Below are positions 1 to 15,343 of a stretch of 20,952 nt of DNA, piece after piece. Source of the stretch: a virus; the IMG/VR virus record IMGVR_UViG_3300049793_000240, positions 1 to 20,952 of that record, one strand, 5' to 3'. Under the pieces are notes generated by a model that ran no database searches, was not told where the DNA came from, and was given only the letters and a program-made list of their open reading frames with translations. Position 1 is the first letter of the stretch, and the number at the start of each line of letters is the position of its first letter. The translations under genes and the position numbers were made by a program.

Positions 1-1
1 G

Positions 2-1330
2 ATTCTCATCGGCGAAGAAAACAAAAGTATGCTCCACATGGTAGCTAAGATTTCTGCAAACGGCGATAGCGATATGGCCGATGCGGTTATTCAAGCCTTT
101 GAAGAAATCGGTTATGGGGATGCTTCCCACGTTACAATCCGAGAAATTTCTGGTAAGACTGGATATAAAGTTGAACGTATTGATGGTTTTCCTATCCCAA
201 TGGGTTACGAAGATTCTATCGGTAAGCTTCATACTGCTTTTATTAACGATCAAGCAAATCAACGCTGTTTTATGGAGAAACCATTGTTTCTTCTTTTTGA
301 TGGTGTCGTAAACGATATTATCAATATTTTACCGGTCATCAATGGCCTTGGTAAGAAATATGTTGAAGAAGGAAATTCAGATTACAAGAACTTGGTCATT
401 TTTGCCCATGGTTTTTCTGAAAACGTCCTCACTAATTTGGCTTTCAATTTCGCCGATCCTGGAACGATAAATATTATACCAATGGTGACTCCAATGTCAC
501 AATTCGTAAATTCTCAGCTTGCATTCCTTATGGATATGTCAGCCTTTACGGGTGCTAAAGTTTTCGGTCTTCGCGATCAGTTAAGCACGGCTACCCTTCA
601 AGATCTTGGTGGAAATATGGAGTCTTTCGAGGCTTACCGTTTCCGTTCAACTGTTGTTGGTGATCCAGATCCAGTCAATGTAGAAGTTCGCGCTGATGAC
701 CTAAAAAAACAAAAAGAAACCGCTGAATCTAAAGCTGAATCAGGATGGCTTGAAGAGCGTATCGGTAAGATCACTAACGGGATCGCAAAATTGACGATTT
801 CTGGTGGATCTAACGGTGAGCTTAAAGAGGCCCATGATAGATGTGAAGATGCGGTTTGTGCGGTTCGTTCTGCGATCACTCACGGAGCACTTCCAGGTGG
901 ATGTCGTATCGCGATTGATATGGCCTTAAAAATTGCCGAAGAACTAGAAGAGGGCGATCCAGCTCGTGAAATCCTAATGCCTTCACTTATGGCTCTTCCA
1001 CAACGTCTTTTGGACAATGCCGGATACCACGGTGACGAGATTACGAAGGTTATTACTCATTTAATTGAAAATCCAGACGATGTTTACGATATCGAGAACG
1101 AAACTTACGGAAAAGCCGAAGAATTAGGCCTATTTGATGCAACTAAGGCTGTGTCAGAATCTTTAAATAATGCGGTATCTATCGCAAGTGTTTTAGGAAC
1201 TATGGGCGGAATTGTCTGCCATCCAAGAGATGCTGAATTTGAAAGATCTGAGGCTCGCGCTGATTCTGAATTTACGCGAGTGGCAGAAAACCCTAACGCC
1301 TACGTAAATGAGGCTAATGAGCGTCCATAA
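2..1330 (+). CDS. GroEL-like chaperonin, 5'-truncated by window edge
   Basis: Phage-encoded group I chaperonin (GroEL fold), expected to fold phage proteins in an ATP-driven ring in the cytoplasm. The frame is open to the left edge, so ATG 29 is internal and roughly the first 150 residues are missing. From the edge the order is end of the intermediate domain (VAKISANGDSD, like GTISANSD of GroEL), apical domain, second intermediate segment and C-terminal equatorial domain. The block ERIGKITNGIAKLTISGG matches GroEL ERVAKLAGGVAVIKVGA. RCEDAVCAVRSA keeps the aspartate equivalent to GroEL Asp398 (codon 848-850), needed for ATP hydrolysis, and ALPGGCRIA matches the VVAGGGVAL glycine loop. The apical domain is divergent, and the C-terminus lacks the GGM tail, ending AYVNEANERP. 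Its stop overlaps the next ATG (TAATG). Family assignment is firm; whether it forms rings alone or with host GroEL is unknown. Confidence 0.9.
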   Translation: MLIGEENKSMLHMVAKISANGDSDMADAVIQAFEEIGYGDASHVTIREISGKTGYKVERIDGFPIPMGYEDSIGKLHTAFINDQANQRCFMEKPLFLLFDGVVNDIINILPVINGLGKKYVEEGNSDYKNLVIFAHGFSENVLTNLAFNFADPGTINIIPMVTPMSQFVNSQLAFLMDMSAFTGAKVFGLRDQLSTATLQDLGGNMESFEAYRFRSTVVGDPDPVNVEVRADDLKKQKETAESKAESGWLEERIGKITNGIAKLTISGGSNGELKEAHDRCEDAVCAVRSAITHGALPGGCRIAIDMALKIAEELEEGDPAREILMPSLMALPQRLLDNAGYHGDEITKVITHLIENPDDVYDIENETYGKAEELGLFDATKAVSESLNNAVSIASVLGTMGGIVCHPRDAEFERSEARADSEFTRVAENPNAYVNEANERP

Positions 1331-1500
1331 TGAGATCTTACGGTAAGAAAAAATGCTTAATCTCACCCTGCGAATGCTGCAATTCTGAAGCCAAATTGGT
1401 AAAGTTCAAAGGGAACAAATCTCGGGCACGTCGAGATGCAAAGAAAGAGATAAAAGATGAGATTCGAGACGTTAACAAACGAAGAGAAAAATCTATATAG
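1330..1500 (+). CDS. Small basic Cys-containing protein, unknown function
   Basis: A 56-codon ORF whose ATG shares its A with the TAA stop of the chaperonin gene (TAATG), a coupling arrangement seen repeatedly in this window. It fills the 126-base space between the chaperonin stop and the TerL start and overlaps TerL by 44 bases. The product begins MRSYGKKKCLISPCECC, with cysteines at 9, 14, 16 and 17, and is then very rich in Lys/Arg with a predicted helical tail (KSRARRDAKKEIKDEIRDV). The four cysteines could bind zinc and the basic tail nucleic acid, but I recognise no family. There is no strong ribosome site of its own, so translation would rely on coupling. The case for it being real rests on position and the start/stop overlap. 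Confidence 0.55.
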   Translation: MRSYGKKKCLISPCECCNSEAKLVKFKGNKSRARRDAKKEIKDEIRDVNKRREKSI

Positions 1501-3313
1501 TGAACTATTGTTCGCTCCGCTTTCTTCATCCCAGGAACTTAAAGACTGGGTTAGGGGATTCCTCGGTCTCGAACTGCCTTTAGAGATTACCGACCCTGAC
1601 TCTACATCTTCACCTTTGGATGCTATTTGGCAAGTCTACAATGCCTTTAGAACCAATTCAGGTGACGTAAATCCTGGTTATATTTTGCTATCCTGTCGAG
1701 AAGGAATGAAGACCGTTTCGGTCGCGATCCTTGAAACCCTTCTCATGCTCCATTTTCAAATTGAAATTGCTCATGCTGCTGCGATTGAATCCCAGTCATC
1801 GGTTGGTCTCGGGTACATCTCGGAAAATATAGCTAAAGTTCAGCCTTTGATGGAATACGCCGGTTGGGTTCCAGATATGGCCAACAAACGTACTATCAAA
1901 TTTAAGACTCCTCAAGGTAAGACTACTTATATCAAAGTTTTGATCTGTACAGTTAAGGGGATGAACTCACTTCACGTTAACGCCTTGTTCTTGGATGAGT
2001 TGGACTTAGCTGATAAGAAAGCCCTAAAACAGGCGAAAAACATCGTAGGCCACTCGAAGGGTATCTTCGGAATCACTGTTTATCTATCGACTCGTAAATA
2101 TGCGTTCGGGAACATGAACGATGCTATCGAGTCAGCTCAAGAAAAAAACTATAAAATCATCAAATGGAATATTCTGGATGTTACCGAGGCTTGTCCTCCT
2201 AGTCGTCACTTGCCGAATGAACCAAAAGAAGACCGATATGTCACTAAGAACCTACCTATGCAAGCGCTATCCAAGGCTGAATGGGACACTTTACCTGGTC
2301 CTGAGCAGATTAAATGGGATCTGGTTACGGACGCTCACGCGGGCTGCCTAACATGTCCACTTTTGGCTGTATGTAGAAAACGCCTTGCTGATAAGCCTCA
2401 AACTGCGACTGGCGGATTCTATAAACCAATCATAACTGTAATTCAAAAATTTAAAGATAATGATCCAGATACAGGGGAAGCCGAGTTAATGTGCTGGAGA
2501 CCAGGATCTGAGGGTCTAATCTATCCTCGTTTCGTGTCTCAGGTTGGTAAAGGTAACGTAATCGACTATAAAGCCGCTTACGAAACTTTAATGGGCCCAA
2601 CCAACAATGCGATCACGGAACTCACTTTAATTCATGCGATGCACGAAGCCGGCATTCAATTTTTTGCCGGAGTGGACTGGGGTTATACCCATGATTTTAC
2701 CATTATCATAATGGCTATGATGCCAAATGGAGAAGTTTGGGTTGTAGACTCATTTGCAGCTCCAGGATTGGAAATGGCGGATATGCTCCGTATTGCAATC
2801 CCTTACAATGACAAATATAAAGTTCAAGCATGGTACTGTGATCCAGCTTATCCTGCAAACGTAAAAACATTCACAAGAAATAGAATGCGTTCTCCTAAAT
2901 TTACAAAAGACGTTATGGCAGGAATTGAAGCTGTTCGTTCTAAAATTACGGATGGTTTAAGTAAGAGACTTTTCAAAGTTATCAATCGTCCTGAAAATAA
3001 GAAGCTCATCACGGCTATAGTTAAACACAGATTTAAACTAGACGGTCAAGGTAACATTACAACGGAACCAGATGATGAACGCGGTATCGCCGATTTGTGC
3101 GATGCTTTACGTTATATTGCTCAAAATAAATTTCCAATCAAAGGTAGTCAAAAACCAGGAGCTTCATGGGCTGAAGAACAATCGCTGAATCAGCTTCAAA
3201 ATCCAACAGTTACGGAGCAGATGAAGCAAGAAATTGCGTCTAGGATCGCGGATTCAGGCGGATCTTTGACAAATACAACGTCTCGAAAAGGCGGATTTCA
3301 TTGGAATTTCTAA
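1457..3313 (+). CDS. terL: Terminase large subunit (TerL)
   Basis: Packaging motor ATPase and headful/cos nuclease that docks on the portal and pumps DNA into the prohead. The 618 residues show the two-domain TerL plan. The N-terminal ATPase has a deviant Walker A around 79-86 (SCREGMKT), Walker B at 176-181 (ALFLDE) and a coupling-type motif STRK near 211. The C-terminal RNase H-like nuclease has acidic motifs GVDWG (D407), YCDPAYP (D462) and GIADLCDALRY (D546/D549). Between the domains is a Cys cluster (C297, C300, C306 in GCLTCPLLAVC) that could be a metal-binding insert. The start lies inside the preceding small ORF, with AAAGAGAT just upstream. The small terminase is not adjacent; the helix-turn-helix protein at 13403 is a weak candidate. 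Length is at the upper end for TerL. Confidence 0.95.
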   Translation: MRFETLTNEEKNLYSELLFAPLSSSQELKDWVRGFLGLELPLEITDPDSTSSPLDAIWQVYNAFRTNSGDVNPGYILLSCREGMKTVSVAILETLLMLHFQIEIAHAAAIESQSSVGLGYISENIAKVQPLMEYAGWVPDMANKRTIKFKTPQGKTTYIKVLICTVKGMNSLHVNALFLDELDLADKKALKQAKNIVGHSKGIFGITVYLSTRKYAFGNMNDAIESAQEKNYKIIKWNILDVTEACPPSRHLPNEPKEDRYVTKNLPMQALSKAEWDTLPGPEQIKWDLVTDAHAGCLTCPLLAVCRKRLADKPQTATGGFYKPIITVIQKFKDNDPDTGEAELMCWRPGSEGLIYPRFVSQVGKGNVIDYKAAYETLMGPTNNAITELTLIHAMHEAGIQFFAGVDWGYTHDFTIIIMAMMPNGEVWVVDSFAAPGLEMADMLRIAIPYNDKYKVQAWYCDPAYPANVKTFTRNRMRSPKFTKDVMAGIEAVRSKITDGLSKRLFKVINRPENKKLITAIVKHRFKLDGQGNITTEPDDERGIADLCDALRYIAQNKFPIKGSQKPGASWAEEQSLNQLQNPTVTEQMKQEIASRIADSGGSLTNTTSRKGGFHWNF

Positions 3314-3359
3314 AATACGGCAATCTTAGAGTAGTAACACGCTTGAAGAGGGCTAAATA

Positions 3360-4304
3360 ATGAGTAAATTGAATTTCCTGGTATATCTCCAAACATACAG
3401 CGATGCTTCGCCTAGTAATAATCCATCCTTATCCAACTTTAAATGGTCTCGTGAAATTACCGGAGTTCCAGCTTCAAATCCTATCAGTGAAGCTTTTAAT
3501 TTAGCTCCAGGTGAGTCTAAAACTATTTTTTCCGGTGTTCGCACTATTCTGGTAGATGGAACTACTAACTTTTCACTTCAATTAAAACCTTTAAGTTCAA
3601 GTACTTATAGACTTTTGGCTACTTCTGGACAAATTCCTGGATTTCGCACAGCACGCTCAACTGGCACTGATGCAACTACTGAAGTAACTACAGTCACCAA
3701 TGGCCCAATTATCACATTTTCTTCAACTGGCGGTACACCTTTTAACTTTGCTTCGGTAATTGTTGGGGATACTGTTAAAATAGGCGACCAATTTAATACA
3801 CTTAATCAGGGTGAATACAAAGTATTAGCAAAAACTGCAACTTCTTTTACTGTTGAAAATTTTACTGGAGTTAACGAAGGGCCCATTACTTTAGGTTCTG
3901 GTTTTGCTGATCAGATCCGAATTTTCAGCGCAGCTGGAGTTCAAGAAGGCGACACAATCGTTATCAAATCTGGATTCTCTTCAGTAACTTTTGGATCTTA
4001 TAAGATCACTGATGTTACCGATAATTATGTTGAATTTTACAGCACTTCAGTGCTTCCACAAGAAACTGGAATCGTATCAGCTGATTTAGCAATTTACTCT
4101 CAAGCTAAGAATTTGGTTTACTTAGAATCTAACCAAAAATCTACAGTTACCCTTAATGGCGTTCAAATGGCGTCTATGGAACCTTTCATTATTAATAATT
4201 CTAAACAACCTGGCGTATTCATGCTGAAAGCCACTGTTTATTCGTTCACTGTTACAAACAACAGTTTAGATACTGCCTCATGCTTTGTAGCGACAGTTGA
4301 ATAA
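3360..4304 (+). CDS. Beta-rich probable virion protein with two tandem modules
   Basis: Family not recognised. The 314-residue protein is rich in Ser/Thr/Val and short alternating segments typical of beta sandwiches, has no transmembrane segment or signal peptide, and lies between TerL and portal, which makes a head, neck or decoration role plausible (inference). The middle holds two related modules of about 55-60 residues, at about 131-191 and 193-248. Each runs GDT, hydrophobic, then GEYKV or GSYKI, then FTVEN or YVEFY, then a glycine-rich turn and an I-x-I/Y-S-x-A ending. The flanking N-terminal (1-100) and C-terminal (250-314) parts look like a separate beta domain. The start is supported by GAAGAGGG about 9 bases upstream. 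The 46-base gap before it holds no clear promoter or terminator. Confidence 0.7.
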   Translation: MSKLNFLVYLQTYSDASPSNNPSLSNFKWSREITGVPASNPISEAFNLAPGESKTIFSGVRTILVDGTTNFSLQLKPLSSSTYRLLATSGQIPGFRTARSTGTDATTEVTTVTNGPIITFSSTGGTPFNFASVIVGDTVKIGDQFNTLNQGEYKVLAKTATSFTVENFTGVNEGPITLGSGFADQIRIFSAAGVQEGDTIVIKSGFSSVTFGSYKITDVTDNYVEFYSTSVLPQETGIVSADLAIYSQAKNLVYLESNQKSTVTLNGVQMASMEPFIINNSKQPGVFMLKATVYSFTVTNNSLDTASCFVATVE

Positions 4305-4310
4305 CGAATA

Positions 4311-4319
4311 TGATATAGG
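4311..4319 (+). promoter_or_regulatory. TGATATA motif, putative phage promoter upstream of portal
   Basis: TGATATAGG lies in the 21-base gap between the beta-rich protein and portal genes. It fits an extended -10 element (TGnTATAnn), and no TTGACA-like -35 is visible about 17 bases upstream. The same heptamer sits in three other gaps of the window. The end of the motif overlaps AGGTG, the only ribosome-site-like sequence before ATG 4326, so a transcript started here would begin at or next to the start codon. Confidence 0.4.
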
Positions 4320-4325
4320 TGTCTT

Positions 4326-6200
4326 ATGAGCGAAGATAACAAAACAACAACTTTTAAACAGCCAACCGCAGAAGCAATCGCGGCAGCTGAAGCAATTTCA
4401 AATTCCGTGAAAAATAAAGTTTCTTTTGCTCTAAGCGGTGAAGCTGCTGAAAAGATGGAGAAATCTGGTAATTTTCAGGCAACTGAAGCTGGCCAATTAA
4501 TGTCTGCTCTTGAGCAAGCAACTGGTTCAGCTGGACCAAAGAAAGCTCCTGCTTTAGCTTTCACTGAAAATCCTGCACCATCCGATAACTACCTGGGCCT
4601 TTACAAGTCTAAGCGTCGTCTTTTACCGGATGAAGTCCTAAAACAAATCCGAGTACAAGATCATTTAATCGCAGCCATCCTACGTGCTCGCGGTTCAATG
4701 ATGTCACTTTTTGGTAATTTACAGAAAGATCGATTCGATGTCGGTGTTAACGTAAAAATCAAAGACGATTTCCAAAAAATCTTAACCCCTGAGCAATACG
4801 AAAAAGTAGTTGCTCGTATGAAGCGTTTTGAGCAATTGCTCCTTAACTGTGGTCATACAGAAGGTCTTGAACACCAAGATCGTAAAACGCTTGCAGAATT
4901 CCTTGATATGCAATCTCGAAACGGTCTTACTTTTGGTCGATTCGGTACAGAAGTCATTTATGACCGTGAAGGAAAAGCTGACGCTGATGGAAATTATCCA
5001 TTTTTCCGTTTCCGCGCGGTAGACGTTGCTACTATTGTTCGTGCAGTTCGTAAAGGTGAAGCTATTGGAAACAATCTTCGTGTTACTGCTCTACGTGCTC
5101 TTGAGTCATTAACGGGCGAAAAAATTAACATAGACCTAAATGAACTTAAAGAAGACAAATACGCTTGGCTGCAAGTTATTGACGGGACTCCCCGCCAAGC
5201 TTTCACTCATGATGAGATGCTTGTCTTCGATCTTTTCCCTTCTACTGATATTGAGCATAATGGTTATCCGGTGTCTCCTATTGATACCGTTGTTAGCTCT
5301 ATTACTACTCACATTTCTATTGATGCTTATAAAAAGCTTTACTTCCAAAACGGAAGAGCCTCTAAAGGGATGCTCGTCATCCAGTCAGATGAAGTCGATC
5401 AACAAACCCTAGATAATATGAAGCTTCAGTTCAACGCGTCTATCAATAGCGTGTCGAACTCTTTCCGTACACCAATTTTCGGTGTTGGTAAAGAAGATAA
5501 AGTTGAATGGCTATCTATGATCGGAGAAGGGGCACGCGATGCTGACTTCCAGTTCATGTATGACCAAGTTGCTAGAAACATTCTTTCAGCTTTCTCAATC
5601 AGCCCTGATGAATTGCCAGGATATGGCCACCTTTCTAAAGGTACTAATTCTCAGACTCTTTCTGAATCAAATAATGAATTCAAATTGACTGCAGCTCGTG
5701 ACACTGGTTTAAGACCAATGATCTTGAAGTTCCAGACTTTCTTTAATCAACGCCTGTTCCCGATCATGGACCCTCTTTTGGCCAAGATCTGTGAAGTTAA
5801 ATTCGCAGGCCTTGATGCACAATCAAAAGAACAAGAATCTGTTCGTCTTCAACAAGACATGGCAATTCACATGACTTATGACGAAGTTCTTCATGAAGCT
5901 GACAAAGATAAGATCGGAAAAGCTTCAGGTGGAGAATTCCCTTTCAACGAACGCTATCAGTTAATTCTGGATAAGTATATGGACGTGGGTGCTATCCGTA
6001 CTCGCTTCTTTGGCGATCCAGGGGCTATCGTAGATCCACTTCAAAAATACCGTAGAGATCCATTCTTTATTCAATGGCTACAGTTAATGGCTCAAACGAA
6101 CCCTGCTGCGGTTCAAGCGCTTTTTGCTCCTAAGCCTTATGCGTTAGAATTTTTAAAAATGAACATTCAAGACGAACTAGACGGAGAAGACAATGTCTAA
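4326..6200 (+). CDS. Portal protein
   Basis: Dodecameric channel at the unique capsid vertex through which TerL packages DNA and to which head-tail connectors attach. The 624-residue length and sequence pattern fit phage portals of the HK97/SPP1 type: an N-terminal low-complexity Ala/Glu region, a wing/stem core including TFGRFGTEVIYDREG, the segment YKKLYFQNGRASKGMLVI, and ISPDELPGYGHLSKGTNSQTL, where portals typically carry the clip/stem transition and a Ser/Asn-rich loop before the long C-terminal helices. Neighbouring TerL and MuF-like genes support the call. It now ends GEDNV followed by TAA. That stop lies inside the start of the HNH gene, and the portal frame would continue for five codons (KPSQL) if the 640-base HNH segment were absent, so this C-terminus is probably secondary. 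Confidence 0.9.
   Translation: MSEDNKTTTFKQPTAEAIAAAEAISNSVKNKVSFALSGEAAEKMEKSGNFQATEAGQLMSALEQATGSAGPKKAPALAFTENPAPSDNYLGLYKSKRRLLPDEVLKQIRVQDHLIAAILRARGSMMSLFGNLQKDRFDVGVNVKIKDDFQKILTPEQYEKVVARMKRFEQLLLNCGHTEGLEHQDRKTLAEFLDMQSRNGLTFGRFGTEVIYDREGKADADGNYPFFRFRAVDVATIVRAVRKGEAIGNNLRVTALRALESLTGEKINIDLNELKEDKYAWLQVIDGTPRQAFTHDEMLVFDLFPSTDIEHNGYPVSPIDTVVSSITTHISIDAYKKLYFQNGRASKGMLVIQSDEVDQQTLDNMKLQFNASINSVSNSFRTPIFGVGKEDKVEWLSMIGEGARDADFQFMYDQVARNILSAFSISPDELPGYGHLSKGTNSQTLSESNNEFKLTAARDTGLRPMILKFQTFFNQRLFPIMDPLLAKICEVKFAGLDAQSKEQESVRLQQDMAIHMTYDEVLHEADKDKIGKASGGEFPFNERYQLILDKYMDVGAIRTRFFGDPGAIVDPLQKYRRDPFFIQWLQLMAQTNPAAVQALFAPKPYALEFLKMNIQDELDGEDNV
6183..6186 (+). promoter_or_regulatory. GGAG ribosome site, likely ancestral site of the 6833 gene
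   Basis: GGAG sits six bases before ATG 6193, inside the last portal codons. It now drives the HNH gene. If the HNH segment is removed at the ATGTC repeat, the same site lies at the same distance from the ATG of the gene now starting at 6833, suggesting the endonuclease took over its neighbour's translation signal. Confidence 0.5.
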
Positions 6201-6837
6201 GAGGTGTTGTCGATGTAAGGAAACATTTGATTTAAACATGTTTACTAAGTCTGCCAGCACGCCATCTGGATTTCGACCAGATTGTAAGCCTTGTTGTAAG
6301 GTAAGATCTGAAAAATACAGAAAAGAAATGAGTGAAGAGCGCAAACAGGCGTATAGAGATCAAAGACGTAAAAGATATACTGAAAATAAAGAAAAAGAGA
6401 TAGCTCAAGTTAAGCAATATAGAGCTATTAATGAAGAAAAGTATAAAGATATCCAAAAAAGATGGTATATTGAGAATAAGGAATCAATTACACAGTATAG
6501 AGCTGCTTACTCTAAGAATAGACGTAATACTGATCCCGTTTTTAAGTTAGCTCACAATTTACGCGTTAGATTGCGGCATTTTGCATTAAGAGGTTTTAAA
6601 TCTAAAAAAACCCAAGAATTGTTAGGGTGTTCTTTTGAGTTCTTAAGATCACACTTAGAGCAAAAGTTTGAAAATGGAATGTCATGGGAAAACTACGGCT
6701 CATGGCATATAGATCACATTGTTCCGTTAGCAATTGCGGAATCTGAAGAGCAATTGCAAAATTTGTTTCATTATAGTAATTTACAGCCTTTATGGGCACA
6801 AGAAAATAGAGAAAAGGGCGCAAGGATAGATTATGTC
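6193..6837 (+). mobile_element. Inferred 640-base homing-endonuclease insertion with ATGTC at both ends
   Basis: ATGTC occurs at 6193-6197 (portal tail and HNH start) and at 6833-6837 (HNH tail and next gene start). Removing 6193-6832 rejoins portal in frame to a stop five codons later (VKPSQL, then TAA). It also restores the downstream ATG next to the GGAG at 6183. The repeat is short and could be chance, but the three consequences agree. The element carries only the HNH gene. Confidence 0.5.
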
Positions 6838-6855
6838 AAACCAAGTCAATTATAA
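6193..6855 (+). CDS. HNH endonuclease with N-terminal zinc finger (probable homing type)
   Basis: Site-specific DNA endonuclease, probably a free-standing homing enzyme. The N-terminus has a Cys cluster (C5, C6, C8, C31, C34, C35) of zinc-finger type, followed by a long Lys/Arg/Glu-rich helical linker (about 37-115). The C-terminal HNH domain has WHIDHIVPL (171-179, with D174/H175) and YSNLQPLWAQENREKG (194-209, with N196 and N205). Codon choice differs from the portal gene before it, with heavy AGA and A/T-ending codons, consistent with transfer. It overlaps portal by 8 bases and the next gene by 23 bases. Its C-terminal residues VKPSQL are read in the same frame portal would use if the insert were absent. 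It likely gives no packaging function itself. Confidence 0.88.
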   Translation: MSKRCCRCKETFDLNMFTKSASTPSGFRPDCKPCCKVRSEKYRKEMSEERKQAYRDQRRKRYTENKEKEIAQVKQYRAINEEKYKDIQKRWYIENKESITQYRAAYSKNRRNTDPVFKLAHNLRVRLRHFALRGFKSKKTQELLGCSFEFLRSHLEQKFENGMSWENYGSWHIDHIVPLAIAESEEQLQNLFHYSNLQPLWAQENREKGARIDYVKPSQL

Positions 6856-7480
6856 ACAAAAATATGAAGAACTTAAAATGAAGTTCATGGAGTCTGTAGA
6901 TCAGGCTTTCCGTTTAGGATTTGAGCAAGGTGCCGTTCAAGGTATGCAAGATGCTCAAATGCAACAACAACAAGTTCAACAAGAAGCTGATCAAAACGCA
7001 GCTGGAATTGGCCAAGGACAAGGATCTGAAGGATCACCTGCAGGTGCTGAACAAATGGCTAACCCAAATGGCGGTAGCGTTGGAGATATGGAGCCAGATT
7101 CTGAGAATCCAGCTGGATCTGAACTTGATCAACATATTGCTAAATTAGAATCAATGGTTTCTAAAGCTGAAACTAAACCAGCCGACTTACTTAAAGCTAT
7201 TTCTGAACTTCAATCACTTCGTAAATCTCAAGCTGCCCAAATCACTTTTGGTCGTGAGATGAAAAAATCTTATCAAGCAATTCCTGGGATTGCACAAGCT
7301 CTTCATAAGCCAGCTTTTAAAATGAGCCAACAAGCTTCTCATAATATGAATTCAAATGCTAAAGCAGCTGTTGGGATGCAAGAGAAAATTGTTGGTGATA
7401 TCATGAAGTCATGGGAAGAAGAAGAAAAGAATGCAACTTCAGACATTCAAAAGATCTTAAATTCAGTTAAGAAGGATTAA
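6833..7480 (+). CDS. Gln/Gly-rich head-module protein, unknown
   Basis: No family recognised. The 215 residues divide into an N-terminal helix (1-50), a low-complexity stretch of Gln, Gly, Asn, Ala and Pro (about 42-95, including QMQQQQVQQEADQ), and a C-terminal helical region (about 98-215) that is charged and likely to form coiled coil. The position between portal and MuF is where scaffold-like or portal-associated factors can occur, so an assembly role is plausible but unproven. The start overlaps the end of the HNH gene by 23 bases. AAGGAT within the HNH gene can serve as its ribosome site now, whereas GGAG at 6183 would have done so before the insertion. Confidence 0.7.
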   Translation: MSNQVNYKQKYEELKMKFMESVDQAFRLGFEQGAVQGMQDAQMQQQQVQQEADQNAAGIGQGQGSEGSPAGAEQMANPNGGSVGDMEPDSENPAGSELDQHIAKLESMVSKAETKPADLLKAISELQSLRKSQAAQITFGREMKKSYQAIPGIAQALHKPAFKMSQQASHNMNSNAKAAVGMQEKIVGDIMKSWEEEEKNATSDIQKILNSVKKD

Positions 7481-7482
7481 TC

Positions 7483-7734
7483 GTGATCCAGATACCTCCA
7501 CATCTTAAATTGGACTTTGATTCATTATCTGATGCTCAACAGCAGAAGTTTATGGAATTGGCCCATTGGGGTGCTGCTGGAAGCCCTGGAAATTTGATCA
7601 TTACGGATGGAGCTTTTGAACGTATCTTCAATTCTGTAAAACAAATGGGAGAAGATCCTCTTACTCCTGCTCAACCTGATACTTCAGTTAATCATGATTG
7701 GGACTTTGATCCAAAGCAAAACAAGGGGCGCTAA
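7483..7734 (+). CDS. Small hypothetical protein with GTG start
   Basis: An 83-residue protein starting at GTG two bases after the preceding stop and ending directly before the MuF ATG (TAAATG). It opens MIQIPPHLKLDFDSLSDAQQQKFMELAHWG and ends in an acidic/basic tail (WDFDPKQNKGR). No transmembrane segment, signal peptide or Cys motif is visible. Function unknown. The tight spacing on both sides and its place in the head module suggest a structural or assembly accessory made with its neighbours. Confidence 0.65.
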   Translation: MIQIPPHLKLDFDSLSDAQQQKFMELAHWGAAGSPGNLIITDGAFERIFNSVKQMGEDPLTPAQPDTSVNHDWDFDPKQNKGR

Positions 7735-8502
7735 ATGTTCGGCATGAATAGTTCTAGTAAAGAACAAATCGCCGAAGTAGTCGAAAAGATGTTCGACTCG
7801 ATTGCATTGCAATTTATTGGCGATATCCCAAAACTCAAAAACAAAAAAATGCTCGTTATTAGCTCAAAAAGAAACTTTGGGTTAAGTCACTTATTTATTC
7901 AAGCTATGCAGAATAAAGTACCGAATGCGATTGAGCAAGATGTTCTTAAATCTCTATTAGAAAGCGCGTTCGGCTATATTGAATCTCTGAAAAATAAGAC
8001 TAAATCAAATGTGACTGAAAGACTTGATGGGCTATTCCGTGAAGCTAATCTGAATAATCGTGAAACTGATTTTTCTTCAGTTCGTGATGTTTTAGCTGAA
8101 GAATTATCTAAAGCCAAAAGTCATCTGAGAGCCATTGCTGAATCTGAAGCAACTAAACTCAGAAATCTTGGTACTATGATGGATATTTCTCGCGTAGCCG
8201 CAAACTTAGGCGATAATGATCCTACGGTATTTTTTGTGGTCGTAAAAGATGGGTCAACTTGTAAGGAATGCTTAAGACTTCATCTTATGCCGGACCAGGT
8301 AACACCTAGACTTTGGAAATTTTCAGAGCTTAAACAAGGCTATCATAAGCGTTCCGATGATAATCCTTCTGCTTTCGGTCTACATCCTCACTGTAGATGT
8401 ACGCTGACTTATCTCTCTTCTGGTTTCGGATTCAATAAATCTGGTTTAGTTTCATATCAAAATGAAAAATATGATGCTTTTGCAAGTCAAAGAAATAAGT
8501 AG
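7735..8502 (+). CDS. MuF-domain minor head protein
   Basis: Minor capsid protein of the phage Mu gpF / SPP1 gp7 type, which associates with the portal and is packaged inside the head in small numbers. The N-terminal 150 residues are mostly helical. The C-terminal domain shows the diagnostic Cys/His pattern: FFVVVKDGSTCKECLRLHL (C176, C179) and GLHPHCRCTLTY (H217, H219, C220, C222). A second ATG at 7744 is possible, but ATG 7735 directly follows the previous stop, with AAGGGGCG upstream. The usual order portal-MuF is kept, separated here by the HNH gene and two small genes. No toxin domain is fused to the C-terminus. It ends the head module; the next gap holds a TGATATA motif. Confidence 0.85.
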   Translation: MFGMNSSSKEQIAEVVEKMFDSIALQFIGDIPKLKNKKMLVISSKRNFGLSHLFIQAMQNKVPNAIEQDVLKSLLESAFGYIESLKNKTKSNVTERLDGLFREANLNNRETDFSSVRDVLAEELSKAKSHLRAIAESEATKLRNLGTMMDISRVAANLGDNDPTVFFVVVKDGSTCKECLRLHLMPDQVTPRLWKFSELKQGYHKRSDDNPSAFGLHPHCRCTLTYLSSGFGFNKSGLVSYQNEKYDAFASQRNK

Positions 8503-8519
8503 TCTTTAACTCCAAGATC

Positions 8520-8528
8520 TGATATATT
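8520..8528 (+). promoter_or_regulatory. TGATATA motif, putative promoter upstream of helicase gene
   Basis: TGATATATT, in the 33-base gap between the MuF and helicase genes, fits an extended -10 without a recognisable -35. It lies nine bases before ATG 8536, so predicted initiation falls at about the start codon, as for the copy before portal. It marks the boundary between head genes and the recombination/transcription block. Confidence 0.4.
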
Positions 8529-8535
8529 CAGGTTA

Positions 8536-10056
8536 ATGCGATTTAAAATAATATCCCCCACTAAAGCATACGTAATTGACGCAACGCCTCTCGATATCGA
8601 GTCGCTTACAAAATCGTTGAGTTACATCAATACAGCCTTTAAACATCAAGCAAAACGACATTACGATAATAAGTGGCTTAGAAATAAGAATAAAGATGCT
8701 TGGGAAAAGAAGCTCGCAGAATTAAAAACAAGAATTAATAATTGTCTATTATTCCACGATGGCGCAACTCATTGGATTAGACCTGGAAGCTTATCTCATC
8801 TAAATATTCCAAAAAGTTTGATAGATAATGAAATTATTTATCCAACTCCTAAAAAAGTACCATGGGCCAAACCATTACCTTTTGATTTGTACGATTATCA
8901 AGAGATGTCAGTTGAAAAACTGATTCAAGTTAAACATGGTAACGTAGAATTATGTACTGGTGCAGGTAAATCTGCCATTATTTTACAGATTTGTCGTGAA
9001 ACTGGCTTTAGAACGTGCATTATTGCGCCTTCGCAATCTATTTTTAATGAACTTTTAGAGAAATTTGAGCATCATTTAGGTAAAGATAAAGTCGGAGCTT
9101 ATGGTGATGGTAAGAAAAAGATAGGAAAACGCTTTACAGTTTGTATCGGCGATTCTTTGGCCAACCTAAAGCCAGGAACAGAGGAATGGAATTTCTTTGC
9201 CGGCATGGATATGATGATAGTGGATGAATCCCATACCTGGGGAGCCGATACTTTAGAGGACATCTGCCATGGTGTTCTACAGAGCGTACCTTACCGTATG
9301 TTTATGTCAGGTACTCAAACGCGTGGTGACGGTGCCGAGAGACTACTACAAAGTATTATAGGTCAGACAGTCCATACGCTTACTACCAAAGAGGCCATCG
9401 CAGGCGGATATATCTGTGATCATGATTTTACGATTGTGGATATTGAATCTTCTAATCCAAATCAACAATCTGGCGATATTTTGGAAATGAAGCGAATTCA
9501 TTTCCTTCGTAATCGAAATATTGCAGCTTTTATCGCGAAGCTTGCGAATGCTTCTGCTATGGCTAATAATCATCAAACCCTTATTTTAGTTGAAGAATTG
9601 TCTCAAATTGCAATGCTTATTCCGCTACTCAAAGTACCTTACGCTTATGCTCACTCTGAATCATCTAAAGTGAAATTAGCCGAACTTGAGCTTACTTCTA
9701 AAATTCTTTTGGAAAAAGTCGATAGAGCCGATTCAGTTGAAAAATTCAATAAATCTGAAGCCAAAGTATTGATCGGCACTTCGTGTATCGCGACCGGTAC
9801 TAATATTTTTCCTACTCACAATTGCGTAAATTGGGTCGGAGGGTCTTCAGAGATCAAAACTAAGCAAGGTGCAGTTGGTCGCGCAGTGCGTAAAGGTGAA
9901 TCTAATCCATGGGCTAAGAATTGCGCTCCAAAGGCTAAATCTAGGATCTGGGATTTCAACGTCCATGATCAGTTTGTTCTTGGAAAAATGCTAGCTGATC
10001 GAGTTCTATGTTACCGAGATTCAGGTACCGAAATCAAGCGTATCAAGCTGAAATAG
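8536..10056 (+). CDS. UvsW-like superfamily 2 helicase
   Basis: ATP-dependent DNA/RNA helicase of the SSL2/UvsW group; in T4, UvsW unwinds R-loops and branch-migrates recombination intermediates, helping the switch to recombination-dependent replication. The 506 residues comprise an N-terminal accessory domain (1-110), a Q-type motif (YDYQEMSVEKL, 119-129), Walker A TGAGKS (141-146), motif Ia IIAPSQS, Walker B as a DESH box (230-233), motif III MSGTQTRGDG, and motif VI QGAVGRAVR (444-452, with R449 and R452). All expected catalytic residues are present, so it should be active. Length and domain order match T4 UvsW closely. It likely works with the gp46/gp47-like nuclease and junction resolvases downstream. 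The ribosome site is weak (CAGG). Confidence 0.85.
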   Translation: MRFKIISPTKAYVIDATPLDIESLTKSLSYINTAFKHQAKRHYDNKWLRNKNKDAWEKKLAELKTRINNCLLFHDGATHWIRPGSLSHLNIPKSLIDNEIIYPTPKKVPWAKPLPFDLYDYQEMSVEKLIQVKHGNVELCTGAGKSAIILQICRETGFRTCIIAPSQSIFNELLEKFEHHLGKDKVGAYGDGKKKIGKRFTVCIGDSLANLKPGTEEWNFFAGMDMMIVDESHTWGADTLEDICHGVLQSVPYRMFMSGTQTRGDGAERLLQSIIGQTVHTLTTKEAIAGGYICDHDFTIVDIESSNPNQQSGDILEMKRIHFLRNRNIAAFIAKLANASAMANNHQTLILVEELSQIAMLIPLLKVPYAYAHSESSKVKLAELELTSKILLEKVDRADSVEKFNKSEAKVLIGTSCIATGTNIFPTHNCVNWVGGSSEIKTKQGAVGRAVRKGESNPWAKNCAPKAKSRIWDFNVHDQFVLGKMLADRVLCYRDSGTEIKRIKLK

Positions 10057-10065
10057 TTAAATATG

Positions 10066-10074
10066 TGATATATA
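10066..10074 (+). promoter_or_regulatory. TGATATA motif, putative promoter upstream of sigma gene
   Basis: TGATATATA lies in the 60-base gap before the sigma-factor gene, with 44 bases from the end of the heptamer to ATG 10117. Here there is room for an ordinary leader and the ribosome site AAGGAAT. No TTGACA-like -35 is visible at the usual spacing. If this motif is the target of the sigma factor encoded next, the gene would be autoregulated. Confidence 0.45.
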
Positions 10075-10116
10075 ACTTATGAATCCGTGAATGGACATCG
10101 TAAGGAATAATATCTC

Positions 10117-11157
10117 ATGTCAAAGTATAAAAAAACTGAAGGTTTTGACGACTCCTTCTACAAGTTTGCCGGTGAAGTGACTCGCCGCATAGAAGCCAAT
10201 AAAGACGGTACGGATCAGAAGCAACAAGTCGAAGAATTGCTTGACGCAGAGATTAAATTTAAAGAGACTATTCTTAAATATCGCCAGTCCACTAAAGTCT
10301 ATATGAAGTTTTGGAATAAAGTCTGTGTCACGAATAAGAACATTCTTTCCGCCCGTCCCTACTTTCGTGAAACTGCCATAACTTTTAGTAAAGATATTAC
10401 TCCAGCCATTAAAGTTACAGATTTAGAAACTATGAAAAGTTTCGACATTAACTATCAATTAATCAAATTTATTAGAGATAATTGGGAAGGCCCTTTTCCA
10501 CCTCGTGCTGAGCAATTATTTTGGCGTGTCCATAAGGCTCGTGAAGTTCTTATTGAAAATAACATGCCTTTAGCAATTAACCGTGCGAAATTATTCTATA
10601 GAAAGACCCCAAAATCTCATCTTACTCTTATGGATATGATTGGAATTTGCGGCATGGGATTAGCTGCCGGCATCGATAAATGGTGCGGTAAATATTCTCC
10701 AGTATTCCGTTCCGTCTGTATTGGCCGAATGGTTGGAAATTTAATTGACTCTTATTCCGAAACTATGTTACACTTCTATCCAAGCGACAAGCGCGTTCTG
10801 TATAAGGCCCACACGATTAGAGGCCGCAGAGGGATAGAAGAAATCCACGCACTCACCGCAGCAGTAAATCAATCCTTCAAAGATGATGGTCTCGAAGGCA
10901 AATCAGTCCCCAAGGAAGAAGTTACAGTGAGTGAGTTATCATATTTAATGAGCGCTGCCTCTACCGTGAGCGCAGACCAAACAATTAATGTCAACGACGA
11001 AGGAAGTTTTGGAGTTTACGACTATACTCCAGATGAAAATCAAGATATTGAAGCCAATTACATGGAGAAAGAGACTACTGCTCACATGCTTGCTTTGGCT
11101 GCTAAATTACCACTATTACACAGAAAAGTTCTAAGATTGAAGGGGATAAAATTATGA
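10117..11157 (+). CDS. Divergent sigma factor lacking region 4.2 (gp55-like role)
   Basis: Phage RNA polymerase specificity factor. Sigma-70 region 2 is visible at about 136-215: VLIENNMPLAINRAKLFYRK resembles the NLRLVVSIAKKY core-binding helix, and LMDMIGICGMGLAAGIDKW with SPVFRSVCIGRMVGNLID resembles DLIQEGNIGLMKAVDKF and the -10-reading helix YATWWIRQAI. A region 3-like segment follows (about 225-285). The C-terminus LPLLHRKVLRLKGIKL looks like region 4.1, and the protein stops there, before the helix-turn-helix that reads the -35. The other downstream frames show no such helix-turn-helix, so this is not an obvious frameshift. T4 gp55 likewise lacks region 4 and reads only a -10-like box, so a late sigma role is likely by analogy. 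The stop overlaps the next ATG (ATGA). Confidence 0.75.
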   Translation: MSKYKKTEGFDDSFYKFAGEVTRRIEANKDGTDQKQQVEELLDAEIKFKETILKYRQSTKVYMKFWNKVCVTNKNILSARPYFRETAITFSKDITPAIKVTDLETMKSFDINYQLIKFIRDNWEGPFPPRAEQLFWRVHKAREVLIENNMPLAINRAKLFYRKTPKSHLTLMDMIGICGMGLAAGIDKWCGKYSPVFRSVCIGRMVGNLIDSYSETMLHFYPSDKRVLYKAHTIRGRRGIEEIHALTAAVNQSFKDDGLEGKSVPKEEVTVSELSYLMSAASTVSADQTINVNDEGSFGVYDYTPDENQDIEANYMEKETTAHMLALAAKLPLLHRKVLRLKGIKL

Positions 11158-11639
11158 GTGAGCAAATTAATCCATTACATGGATCAAGAGATGGAGAATC
11201 ATGTCCTGGTTGTTCACATGAAAGTCATTTTGAGGAGAAAAATATGAGTGAAGAAAAATCTGAAGGAATTCAAGAGACAATTAAAGATAAAGGTAGTATT
11301 GGATACACATGTATGCCAGGACCAAAACCAGCGCCTCATTCTATGAACGGTAGATTTATTCTTGAAGCCTATAAAGAAGACCGTGCTTTGAAGGCTACAG
11401 TTGTGAACGGATTTGCCATGGTTCAACAGAAAGTGACGCTTAAAGGCCTCACTGTTTTGGCTGACGTGTACTCGACAATTAACGGTCAACCTCTTGCTCG
11501 TAAAGGAGATAAAGCCTATATTCGCGAAGCTTCACTTCAATCTCAACCATTCGCTAAAGCCACTTTTACTTCAGACGCTATCGAAGGCGAATTCATGATT
11601 GTCGATATTTCTCATATCGAATTTGTGGATCATAAATAA
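11154..11639 (+). CDS. Putative GroES-like co-chaperonin
   Basis: Probable 10-kDa-type co-chaperonin that would cap the chaperonin encoded at the left edge. From residue 63 the pattern resembles the GroES beta barrel: SMNGRFILEAYKED for the first strand (LHDRVLVKP in GroES), KGLTVLADV for the middle, RKGDKAYIREASL for the VGDIVIF segment, and EFMIVDISHIEFVD for VLIMSESDILAIV. The mobile loop with its GGIVL tripeptide is not obvious. The N-terminal 60 residues are extra, with CPGCSH at 17-22. Two in-frame starts exist: ATG 11154, coupled to the sigma stop (ATGA), and ATG 11244 preceded by GAGGAGA, the best ribosome site in the region, giving 131 residues. Similarity is by eye only; a GroEL homologue in the same window raises the odds. 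Otherwise it is hypothetical. Confidence 0.5.
   Translation: MSEQINPLHGSRDGESCPGCSHESHFEEKNMSEEKSEGIQETIKDKGSIGYTCMPGPKPAPHSMNGRFILEAYKEDRALKATVVNGFAMVQQKVTLKGLTVLADVYSTINGQPLARKGDKAYIREASLQSQPFAKATFTSDAIEGEFMIVDISHIEFVDHK
11234..11240 (+). promoter_or_regulatory. Strong internal ribosome site for an alternative start at 11244
   Basis: GAGGAGA lies a few bases before ATG 11244 inside the GroES-like ORF and in frame with it. Both starts begin MSE. The site suggests that a shorter 131-residue product is made instead of, or in addition to, the 161-residue form. Confidence 0.5.
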
Positions 11640-12046
11640 TGAAAATTTGCTCTAAATGCAAAGAACCTAAAGAATTGTCAGAATTTGCTAAAACAGGCAG
11701 AAAAGAAGGACTATATTCTTCTTTATGCTGTTTATGTTCTAGCCTTAAGGCTAGTTCTTGGAATAAGAAAAATCCTGAAAAAAGAAGACTTGCAAGTAGA
11801 CGCAATAAGCTTAAAACTCAATACGGAATAACCATAGAGCAATATGACGAAATGGTCTTAGCTCAAAACGGTAAATGTTTGATCTGTAAAAATGAACGTA
11901 AACTAGTAGTTGATCACAGCCATGTCACAGGAATAGTTAGAGGTCTTCTTTGTAATAGTTGCAATAGAGGAATCGGTTATCTTCAAGATAATCCTGAAGT
12001 GACTAAAGAAGCAGTGATCTATTTGGAGAAACATGCGAATTCTTAG
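11639..12046 (+). CDS. Endonuclease VII family nuclease with N-terminal zinc finger
   Basis: Nuclease of the recombination endonuclease VII family (T4 gp49), which in T4 resolves Holliday and branched DNA before packaging. The core at 70-115 has zinc cysteines C80/C83 and C105/C108 around VVDHSHVTGIVRGLLCNSCN, with D92, H93 and H95 at the active site and N106/N109 following. The first 35 residues form another Cys cluster (C4, C7, C30, C31, C33), similar to the start of the HNH protein at 6193. T4 gp49 is longer, with a C-terminal dimerisation part; that part is short here (121-135). The gene starts within the previous stop (TAATG), overlaps the gp47-like gene by 14 bases and is AGA-rich. It may be the phage resolvase or a mobile endonuclease of the same fold. 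Confidence 0.85.
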   Translation: MKICSKCKEPKELSEFAKTGRKEGLYSSLCCLCSSLKASSWNKKNPEKRRLASRRNKLKTQYGITIEQYDEMVLAQNGKCLICKNERKLVVDHSHVTGIVRGLLCNSCNRGIGYLQDNPEVTKEAVIYLEKHANS

Positions 12047-13013
12047 AATGGGCGACCCACACATTAGACCAAATAATATTGTCGAAGCTGAACGATTAAT
12101 GGAATTCACTTTAAAGCTAATAGTTAGCGCTAAAGTTGATCGCTTTGAGATTTTGGGAGATCTTTTCCATACTCATGCTGTATTGCGTCTTGAAGTTGTT
12201 CAATTTTGGAATCGTTGGCTTGAAAAGTTCTCTGATATAACAGAGACAGTAGTACTTGTCGGAAACCACGATCAAAGCGGGGATTACGATAAAGGTGATC
12301 ATGCCTTAGAAGTATTTAAGAGAATTAAGAATGAGCGACTCAAAATTATTGACAAACCCACAGTTATTGGAGCCTTCGGATATCTCCCGTACATCCATTC
12401 CGCAAGCATTTTACTTGAATCTGCAAGGGAGCTTGCTAGTCAGGGTGCCAAGACACTCGTGTGTCATGCAACATTTAGCGGGTCACAGTTCGACAACGGT
12501 TTCTACGCCCCAGAAGGAATCAATCCCGACGATATTCCCTTTGAAACAATCATCTCCGGCCACATCCATAAAGAACAGATCATCGCGAACGGAAAAGTTG
12601 ATTATCCTGGGACTGCTAAGTGGGATACTGCTTCTGACGCTAATGAGCATAAAGGTGTTTGGCTCTATGAACATAATCCATTAAACGGAAAAGTAATCAA
12701 TCGCGATAAGATCTCAACATCCAAAGTCGTAACTCCAATAGTGTCTTTTAAATGGGTAGAAGGAGAAGATGCTCCGATTATTCCTGAAGGAGCTAAAGCT
12801 TCAGTTGAACTCGTTGGTTCTAGTGACTGGATTACCAAACAGAAATCAAAATTAAAGGGAAAAGTATCCATTAGCTCAAAATTCACAGATAAGAAAGAAA
12901 AAAGTGAAAGAAAAGCTGGGAATTCTCTTGAAAATTTTCTAAATAACCTGTATGTTAGTACGATGGATCGTGAAAGTCTATTGAGATTTGCTAAGGAGAT
13001 AGGAATTGTCTGA
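12033..13013 (+). CDS. Mre11/SbcD-type nuclease subunit, T4 gp47-like
   Basis: Mn-dependent calcineurin-fold exo/endonuclease subunit that works with the SbcC/gp46-type ATPase encoded at 15344 to process DNA ends for recombination-dependent replication. All five phosphodiesterase motifs are visible: MGDPHIR (D8, H10), ILGDLFH (D43), VLVGNHD (N78-D80), VCHATF (H145) and ISGHIH (H177, H179). A capping and partner-binding region follows to residue 326, consistent with family length. TTGGAGAAAC inside the endonuclease VII gene supplies its ribosome site. Its stop overlaps the TTG start of the next gene by eight bases. It lies four genes ahead of its ATPase partner, as T4 gene 47 lies ahead of 46 with small genes between. 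Confidence 0.92.
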   Translation: MRILRMGDPHIRPNNIVEAERLMEFTLKLIVSAKVDRFEILGDLFHTHAVLRLEVVQFWNRWLEKFSDITETVVLVGNHDQSGDYDKGDHALEVFKRIKNERLKIIDKPTVIGAFGYLPYIHSASILLESARELASQGAKTLVCHATFSGSQFDNGFYAPEGINPDDIPFETIISGHIHKEQIIANGKVDYPGTAKWDTASDANEHKGVWLYEHNPLNGKVINRDKISTSKVVTPIVSFKWVEGEDAPIIPEGAKASVELVGSSDWITKQKSKLKGKVSISSKFTDKKEKSERKAGNSLENFLNNLYVSTMDRESLLRFAKEIGIV

Positions 13014-13410
13014 TTCTACTGTAGAAGAACAAGTCAGGGAAATGGCGAAATTGACGCTACTGACAAACAAGCTTAATCCTATTCAGGAAAAAAACCTGAA
13101 GATGTACCCGCTTGTGTTTTTTAATGGAATTAAGTCGGCTAAGATCGATTTTGATTTATCCAATGATCAAATGCTAGTAGATAGTAACGAAAATAAGACA
13201 GATCTTGAAATTACTTACCAATTCAATAAGGCTGAAACTAGACATTTGAGAGTTTCATACCATCTTGATATTGATGAGGCTGCAGATAACGGATCAATTG
13301 ATGCGCGTTATTCAGCTATTACTCAAGCTGTACGAAATCTCCTTTTTAAAGAGATCAAAGTACAAGTATTTATTAACACGAAATTAGCGTACGAGAGCAA
13401 AGATGTCTGA
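13006..13410 (+). CDS. Hypothetical protein with TTG start
   Basis: A 134-residue protein I do not recognise. The start is TTG 13006, chosen because AAGGAGAT (12993-13000) lies five bases upstream; the first internal ATG would discard about a dozen residues and lacks such a site. The stop overlaps the next gene by eight bases. The middle reads as alternating strands (KSAKIDFDLSNDQ, TDLEITYQFNK, HLRVSYHLDID) followed by a helix and a final strand (IKVQVFINTKLAY), suggesting a small alpha/beta protein. No metal or catalytic motif is seen. Its place between gp47- and gp46-like genes matches the small unknown genes 46.1/46.2 of T4 in position only. Confidence 0.7.
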   Translation: MSDSTVEEQVREMAKLTLLTNKLNPIQEKNLKMYPLVFFNGIKSAKIDFDLSNDQMLVDSNENKTDLEITYQFNKAETRHLRVSYHLDIDEAADNGSIDARYSAITQAVRNLLFKEIKVQVFINTKLAYESKDV

Positions 13411-14068
13411 AGAAGAAAGTAAACCAGCATTGGTAGAACATTTATCTAACGATTTCTCTCAGAAGGATCTGGAAGTTATTAAAGCCTACCAAGAAGCGGG
13501 CTTACCTGCAGTTGCGACTGTGGATGAAAAGAAAATGGCTTCTATGTTGGAAATGTACCTTTCCGGTAAGACTTATCGTCAAATCTCTACTACGATGCAA
13601 ATTAAGAAAGATATCGTTCTTTATATGTCATTCAAATTCAACTGGTTTGAATTAAGACAGGATTATCTTGTGGATATGGAGTCTTCAATGCGCGGTCGCG
13701 TACTTGAGGCCAAAATAGTCAATCAAGATTTCTTGCTTCAGCTTCAGGCTATGTGGCAGAAAAAGATCGGTACCAATATCGCTAAGTATTTGGCTACTGA
13801 TAATGTAGAATTTGCTAATCAGATTGACCTTAAAGAAGTCGATAAATATCTAAAAACCGTGGAACTCCTGCAGAAACTTAGCGTAGAAGGCAAACCCGTA
13901 GCTGACAATACCCGTCCTTTAATTGGGGTTAATGCTGGCGACGGAGTAACTATTGTGCGCACCGGTGAAAACTCTATGGAGATCACTCCTAAGAGTAAAG
14001 CTATCGGGGATGCACTTAAGATGTTTGCTGATTCAAGAAGAGAAGACGAGAAGAAACCGTCAAAATAA
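13403..14068 (+). CDS. Helix-turn-helix protein, possible small terminase
   Basis: A 221-residue DNA-binding candidate. Residues about 47-85 form a helix-turn-helix: MLEMYLSGKTYRQISTTMQI followed by KKDIVLYMSFKFNW, the pattern of a resolvase/terminase-type 'grow, turn, recognise' motif. A long helical middle (86-165) could mediate oligomerisation and the tail is polar and basic (SRREDEKKPSK). That organisation fits small terminase subunits, which are otherwise missing from this window, but it also fits a regulator, and TerL is 10 kb away. The gene ends the tight run that starts at the sigma gene; after it comes a 48-base gap with a TGATATA motif. The assignment beyond DNA binding is weak. Confidence 0.6.
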   Translation: MSEEESKPALVEHLSNDFSQKDLEVIKAYQEAGLPAVATVDEKKMASMLEMYLSGKTYRQISTTMQIKKDIVLYMSFKFNWFELRQDYLVDMESSMRGRVLEAKIVNQDFLLQLQAMWQKKIGTNIAKYLATDNVEFANQIDLKEVDKYLKTVELLQKLSVEGKPVADNTRPLIGVNAGDGVTIVRTGENSMEITPKSKAIGDALKMFADSRREDEKKPSK

Positions 14069-14074
14069 GAACTA

Positions 14075-14083
14075 TGATATAAG
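14075..14083 (+). promoter_or_regulatory. TGATATA motif, putative promoter upstream of exported peptidase
   Basis: TGATATAAG, preceded by CTA, lies 35 bases before ATG 14117, with CAGGAGAAA in between as ribosome site. The -10 hexamer would be TATAAG and no consensus -35 is visible. It is the fourth copy of the heptamer in an intergenic gap and gives the ClpP-like gene its own probable start of transcription. Confidence 0.45.
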
Positions 14084-14116
14084 TTTATTAAGTCCCATTG
14101 GGCAGGAGAAAATACG

Positions 14117-15073: not shown

Positions 15074-15091
15074 AGAACGTAAGATACTAAT

Positions 15092-15343
15092 ATGCCATTA
15101 ATTGTCTACGCATGTAAATGCGGCAACATTGATAAAAAATTTTTAAGGCAGGCCAAAGATGCGCCTGCCTTTTTTCTTTGCCCTAAATGCAATGAAAATG
15201 ATATGAAAAAACAGTTGTCTTCTCCCACTTCTTCTAGTAAGATCACAGTAGATAATGGTGTCCAAGCTCGCGCAGTCGAGATTACGCCAGATATTATTGA
15301 GATTAACAAAGCTAGATCCGAAAAGGATTATAGAGAGGATTAA
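15092..15343 (+). CDS. FmdB-like zinc-ribbon protein
   Basis: An 83-residue protein with the FmdB-type layout: MPLIVYACKCGNIDKKF, then LCPKCNENDMKKQLSSP, giving Cys pairs C8/C10 and C30/C33 for a zinc ribbon, and a polar tail (NKARSEKDYRED). Proteins of this family are common small phage genes, but their role is not established; many are annotated as regulatory on weak grounds. It abuts the gp46-like gene (TAAATG), so the two are probably co-translated. No convincing ribosome site precedes ATG 15092. The striking point is that its codons 19-28 form a perfect intrinsic terminator (15145-15175), so expression of this gene and of the next may depend on read-through. Confidence 0.8.
   Translation: MPLIVYACKCGNIDKKFLRQAKDAPAFFLCPKCNENDMKKQLSSPTSSSKITVDNGVQARAVEITPDIIEINKARSEKDYRED
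15145..15175 (+). terminator. Intrinsic terminator inside the zinc-ribbon coding sequence
   Basis: Left arm AAGGCAGGC (15145-15153) and right arm GCCTGCCTT (15163-15171) pair perfectly over nine base pairs, seven of them GC-rich (GGCAGGC/GCCTGCC), around a nine-base loop. A run of six T (15170-15175), then C and three more T, follows. An A/T tract (AAAAAATTTTTAA) precedes it, so the reverse strand could terminate too. It lies about 70 bases downstream of the peptidase stop, where a terminator for that gene would be expected. Confidence 0.75.

Follow-up and report, generated by a model that had tools for sequence, protein, structure and literature searches.

An HNH endonuclease gene, HNH1, lies between the portal gene and the following scaffold-like gene in the DNA analysed here, a 20,952-nucleotide stretch of an uncultured-virus contig (hereafter, the window). 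Comparison with insert-free relatives gives good support to the view that this gene was inserted. We consider it likely, with a probability of about 0.82, that HNH1 entered this operon junction by intronless homing, that both neighbours were left intact, and that the residues VKPSQL at the end of its product are downstream-gene sequence opened in its reading frame. The host phage is distantly related to Myxococcus phage Mx1, the nearest named phage (portal 48% identical), in which no nuclease is annotated between the portal gene and the next gene. The features at the junction are as follows.

4326..6200, plus strand: portal protein gene (Pfam PF04860, Phage_portal, E 1.7e-13; C-terminus the same as in relatives L003 and L004).
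6183..6186, plus strand: GGAG, which from the sequence probably served the scaffold-like gene as its native ribosome-binding site and now lies 5′ of the HNH1 start.
6193..6201, plus strand: ATGTCTAAG, which begins with the HNH1 start codon and encloses the portal stop TAA (6198-6200; sequence comparison).
6193..6855, plus strand: HNH1, free-standing HNH/EndoVII-like (beta-beta-alpha-Me) homing-type endonuclease gene, 220 aa (phrog_1035, family alignment, AlphaFold).
6822..6826, plus strand: AAGGA within the 3′ coding end of HNH1, likely used by the displaced scaffold-like gene as a new ribosome-binding site (sequence and inference).
6833..6855, plus strand: overlap of 23 nt between the HNH1 tail (VKPSQL-stop) and the scaffold-like start (MSNQVNYK), from the sequence.
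6833..7480, plus strand: scaffold-like gene, 215 aa, without a database family, which stays directly after the portal gene in relatives.

The portal gene of the window ends in D-G-E-D-N-V-TAA. The ATG of HNH1 at 6193 lies 8 nt before the end of this stop, the scaffold-like ATG at 6833 opens the last 23 nt of the HNH1 ORF, and AAGGA is separated from that ATG by 6 nt. A first-pass annotation of this DNA had described the HNH gene at this overlap, with these coordinates and frames and with its last codons overlapping the next gene, and the sequence bore this out. In silico removal of 6193-6832, whose 640 nt are not divisible by 3, joined the frames as that annotation had reported: the portal frame continued to DGEDNVKPSQL-stop with the next ATG within this tail, and HNH1 itself ends VKPSQL-stop in the same frame. 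The repeat ATGTC, which it had pointed out, is present at both ends of the segment and is compatible with a target-site duplication, but by itself it is weak evidence for insertion because sharing of five bases between gene starts is common in the window: ATGTC opens 5 of the 21 gene starts, and the first five bases are common to 27 of the 210 pairs.

Relatives were gathered by scanning viral contigs with the portal protein, which yielded 25 related loci. The closest, L003, is a contig of 170.6 kb with a portal protein 95% identical to that of the window and is its sister in the portal tree (support 100/99). It is collinear with the window where the two overlap (about 1-15270 of the window), and nucleotide identity per 200-base bin is roughly 70-92%. 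The segment 6193-6832 is absent from L003, and L004, L005 and L006 are also empty. The absence of the segment from L003, in which both flanks are collinear, shows that the insertion proposed in the first-pass annotation is real, and HNH1 is an optional gene, filled in the window and empty in these four close relatives. The scaffold-like gene is 86% identical to its L003 copy and is present in 24 related loci; a search of a phage database with it gave no match. A group I or group II intron and an intein were considered and rejected, as neither the portal ORF nor the scaffold-like ORF is interrupted by the insert.

The junction in L003 reads GATAATGTCTAATTCACAAGT, in which the portal gene ends EDNV-stop and the next gene begins ATG TCT AAT. 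The portal endings of the insert-free relatives were DGEDNV-stop in L003 and L004, ENE-stop in L005 and L006, and DDV-stop in L024. In all five the portal stop TAA is also the codon-2/3 sequence of the next gene (ATGNNTAAN), and the next ATG overlaps at the same offset (-7), as the first-pass annotation had anticipated for relatives of this kind. The TAA is kept in the window, now nested in the HNH1 start ATGTCTAAG, which at 6193..6201 matches ATGTCTAAT of the empty site. At the position of GGAG 6183, ahead of the scaffold ATG, L003 has GATGGAGAAGATAATG; this comparison supports the view that HNH1 likely took the native ribosome site and start position. Filled and empty portals are equal in length (624 aa), and judged by its insert-free sister, whose portal ends in the same way, the portal of the window has lost nothing.

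The HNH1 protein is an intact nuclease ORF with a predicted homing-endonuclease fold. An N-terminal Cys4 motif (C5, C8, C31, C34) is followed by long helices and then by a C-terminal beta-beta-alpha nuclease motif, in which D174-H175, N196, W201 and K208 are conserved across seven divergent members of the family alignment. HNH1 matched the PHROG family phrog_1035 (endonuclease VII, E 8e-23), the Pfam HNH_4/HNH models were sub-threshold, and the Pfam EndoVII model gave no match. The AlphaFold model (pLDDT 84, pTM 0.51) predicts strands at 171-175 and 197-201 and a helix at 202-209. Foldseek found no significant whole-chain match for this model; it gave a local match to Hpy99I (probability 0.97 over 39 columns, E 0.77). 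By these matches the catalytic motif may be either of the strict HNH type (I-HmuI, with a central Asn) or of the EndoVII type. Two other matches were set aside: a coiled-coil, the only hit of a phmmer search against solved structures, was taken as chance, and a Pfam YppF match was sub-threshold and fell on the helical linker. No relatives came up when viral contigs were scanned with the HNH1 protein alone, and an alignment query in its place reached 80 loci. Relatives of HNH1 number in the hundreds in phage contigs, at many unrelated junctions. Overlap counts over the 80 loci were not used because of a crude ORF rule, ambiguous starts and many near-copies of one insertion.

The residues VKPSQL are best read as next-gene sequence in the HNH1 frame. 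The downstream copy in the window reads ATGTCAAAC, in which the TAA is gone, and by parsimony this loss would be the derived state. In the downstream gene this difference, TCT to TCA, leaves Ser2 unchanged. HNH1 would end RIDYV-stop if 6838 were T, and with A there it runs on as KPSQL. We suggest that the downstream copy formerly read ATGTCTAAC, with HNH1 ending RIDYV-stop, and that a T-to-A change at 6838 opened the former TCTAA stop in the HNH1 frame and lengthened its tail; the change would have become free once that TAA no longer served as the portal stop. This step follows from parsimony over four relatives, and the A may instead have come in with the incoming gene. In support of the proposed step, the tail in the window is longer than in most of the family (4-8 residues past the last conserved K in 62 of 77 members; 12 in the window, or 7 without KPSQL), and it appears disordered, residues 212-220 being the only segment of the AlphaFold model with pLDDT below 50.

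The portal/scaffold junction appears to have been invaded at least three times in the window and its relatives, by two nuclease types. On the portal tree, the presence of a nuclease there needs at least three changes: in the window, in L013/L014 and in L022. The nucleases of L013/L014 belong to the HNH1 family and are the nearest to HNH1 at this site (40-41% identical), no other phage having a close copy of HNH1 there. In L022, a repeat-rich ORF (2541-3527) occupies the junction; it matched phrog_3339 (homing endonuclease) and, weakly, the MTES_1575 REase model, and by sequence it would be a different type from HNH1. The 3′ end of the nuclease gene in L014 reads TTTAATATGAGCGCAGAGATTAAC, and the insert-free L018 has ATTAATATGAGCGCAGAGATCAAT after the portal gene. 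The L014 nuclease thus appears to have taken over the old portal stop, so that capture as proposed in the first-pass annotation does seem to have happened in this relative, though not in the window.

Related nuclease-type genes also occur upstream of the portal gene, at the terminase/fibre-like and fibre-like/portal junctions (L012, 5902-6420 and 7449-7976; L015, 7445-7966), and the two in L012 look different from each other. On the minus strand, HNH1-family genes lie beside a conserved minus-strand gene of about 400 aa, ligase-like by eye, in L019/L020 (13800-14441) and L023 (12161-12847), another apparent insertion locus.

A second nuclease gene, HNH2, stands in the window between the gene at 11154-11639 and an SbcD-like phosphoesterase gene (12033-13013).

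11639..12046, plus strand: HNH2, EndoVII-motif free-standing endonuclease (PF02945, E 3.7e-24).
12025..12028, plus strand: GGAG near the 3′ end of HNH2, judged by sequence a likely ribosome-binding site for the SbcD-like gene (ATG 12033) that HNH2 displaced.
12033..12046, plus strand: overlap of 14 nt between the HNH2 tail (HANS-stop) and the SbcD-like start (MRILR), from the sequence.

L003 is empty at this site as well: it reads CATAAATAATGAAAATCTTGCGAGTGGGC, with ATGAAAATCTTGCGA where the window has the 12033..12046 overlap. The ATG of HNH2 sits where the native downstream ATG stood, and the SbcD-like gene restarts inside the HNH2 tail, as at the portal junction; HNH2 appears to have been inserted by the same take-over of a start as HNH1. 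L004 carries a decayed, N-terminally damaged copy here. In L117 (the contig of L007), HNH2 is 56% identical although SbcD is only 48% identical; the 3′ join reads GGAAACACATGCGAATACTTAG there and GGAGAAACATGCGAATTCTTAG in the window, the 3′ overlap, shared with the window, is ATGCGAATNCTTAG, with ATGCGAATACTTAG at the position of window 12033..12046 (HANT-stop), and the arrangement is similar to that around GGAG 12025-12028. The first six codons of the SbcD-like gene in the window resemble those of L117 and the next seven are identical to those of L003. In L156 an HNH1-family gene is found ahead of the same SbcD-like gene.

By the mechanism we propose, an insert-free allele would be cut near the junction and then repaired from the HNH-carrying allele; both the specificity of cutting and the direction of transfer are conjectural. 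The insert would stand exactly where the downstream gene had started and use the native ribosome site of that gene (GGAG 6183), while the upstream portal stop stays intact within the 5′ end of the insert. From the 3′ end of HNH1 the displaced gene would then receive a new ribosome site (AAGGA), a new ATG and probably its first few codons. In its HNH2 counterpart, GGAG 12025-12028 in the nuclease 3′ end would serve the displaced SbcD-like gene. New start codons carried by incoming DNA would be expected to diverge from those of L003, and codons 2-7 behind the two HNH genes differ at 10 of 12 positions, compared with 26 of 71 at other gene starts. This divergence and the L117-like start of the SbcD-like gene might reflect co-conversion of the flanks during transfer, but constraint from the overlap is an alternative cause. 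This difference (Fisher p 0.003) pools both sites in a test chosen after seeing the data, and neither site is significant alone (behind HNH1 alone, binomial p 0.06).

Two clean pairs of filled and empty sites in one phage lineage, together with a decayed copy and repeated hits on junctions, indicate how a selfish gene can insert into an essential operon of tightly overlapping genes and leave both neighbours undamaged. More speculatively, at least two and perhaps three kinds of nuclease (the HNH1 family, the EndoVII type and an EDxHD-like kind) may enter start/stop junctions of this phage group by a shared design, a generalization that we hold to be possible but doubtful. In such a design the 5′ end would keep the upstream stop and take the native start site, and the 3′ coding end of the nuclease, in another frame, would provide the displaced gene with its ribosome site, ATG and first codons. 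If so, the C-terminal codons of the nuclease would be selected as a spare start for the target gene.

Other histories of the junction were weighed. The first-pass annotation had proposed that the ancestral portal ended NVKPSQL-stop and that the HNH gene cut five residues off it, the displaced codons becoming the tail of the HNH gene itself. The joined flanks do give that frame, and HNH1 ends in identical letters, but the portals of the two closest insert-free relatives already end DGEDNV-stop, like that of the window, the next two end ENE-stop, and KPSQL was present in none of the relatives examined (L003-L006, L024). We regard this history as very improbable, and the earlier interpretation as a whole is only partly supported, although the insertion that it recognized is confirmed. 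A neat reconstruction of an ancestral gene end from a single genome can mislead when a silent change opens a frame. Artefactual assembly or a chance ORF might be suspected in a contig from an uncultured virus, but both flanks are collinear, and the ORF is intact over 220 codons, has conserved motifs and a fold predicted with fair confidence; the probability of an artefact or a chance ORF is negligible.

An ancestral HNH gene at the junction, removed by precise loss in L003-L006 and most other relatives, is unlikely. HNH1-family genes do occupy the same junction in L013/L014, and such genes do decay, as in L004 at the second site. However, many losses would be required, each leaving a perfect start/stop overlap, the sole example of decay seen is ragged rather than precise, and the nucleases of the window and L013 are about 40% identical while their portals are about 72% identical. 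HNH/EndoVII nucleases serve some phages in packaging or junction resolution, and an intact ORF tightly coupled beside the portal gene could point to a domesticated nuclease with such a packaging or recombination role. The gene is, however, patchy and absent from the closest relatives, an unrelated nuclease type stands in its place in L022, and the family occupies many unrelated junctions, so that domestication seems quite improbable. Insertion by intronless homing remains the reading that we prefer.

Judged from its sequence, HNH1 would be a free-standing intronless-homing element of the T4 seg/mob-like kind, a type already known. Free-standing homing endonuclease genes of T4 are flanked by conserved genes; their starts overlap the stop of the gene before, and coupled translation has been proposed (PMC2988022). 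The HNH gene mobE lies between nrdA and nrdB with the start/stop UAAUGA, and segC, segF, mobA and mobC overlap the upstream gene by 11-24 bp (PMC2988022). HNH1 resembles these genes in its position between conserved genes, its start over the upstream stop and its absence from relatives (PMC2988022). It differs in belonging to another nuclease family and in having a second overlap, in which its 3′ end runs over the downstream start and apparently provides the start site. F-CphI of cyanophage S-PM2, an EndoVII-motif homing endonuclease, takes part in collaborative homing with a psbA intron (PMC6083498). As a free-standing phage enzyme with the EndoVII-type beta-beta-alpha-Me motif it is the closest known system for HNH2 and a related one for HNH1, although the empty sites here involve no intron. 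A survey of ICP1 found homing endonuclease genes of different families clustered near terminase and structural genes (PMC10448857). This is similar to the different nuclease families at the same favoured loci here; the survey, however, treats T5orf172 and IPA-HNH families, and start-site take-over at an overlap was not found described there.

In deposited annotations, the same family shows the same double overlap in Aeromonas phage 4_D05, at a different junction: the first 4 nt of gp41 (endonuclease VII, in the terS/terL interval) lie in the upstream gene, and 13 nt are shared with terL. A double overlap is also annotated in Sinorhizobium phage AP-16-3, and a 3′ overlap in Flavobacterium phage elemoA_7-5A. 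In a limited literature search, with most subscription papers outside its scope, the 3′ start hand-over was not found described.

Three other genes in the window deserve mention. A chaperonin-like protein (Cpn60_TCP1; 29-1330), directly upstream of the terminase gene, is 97% identical in L003. The fibre-like gene in the terminase/portal interval (3360-4304) is among the stretches most diverged from L003, with 70-74% nucleotide identity and a length difference of 252 nt. A ClpP-like protease gene (14117-15073) has a signal-peptide-like N-terminus and matched weakly the models for ClpP and a ClpP-related head maturation protease.
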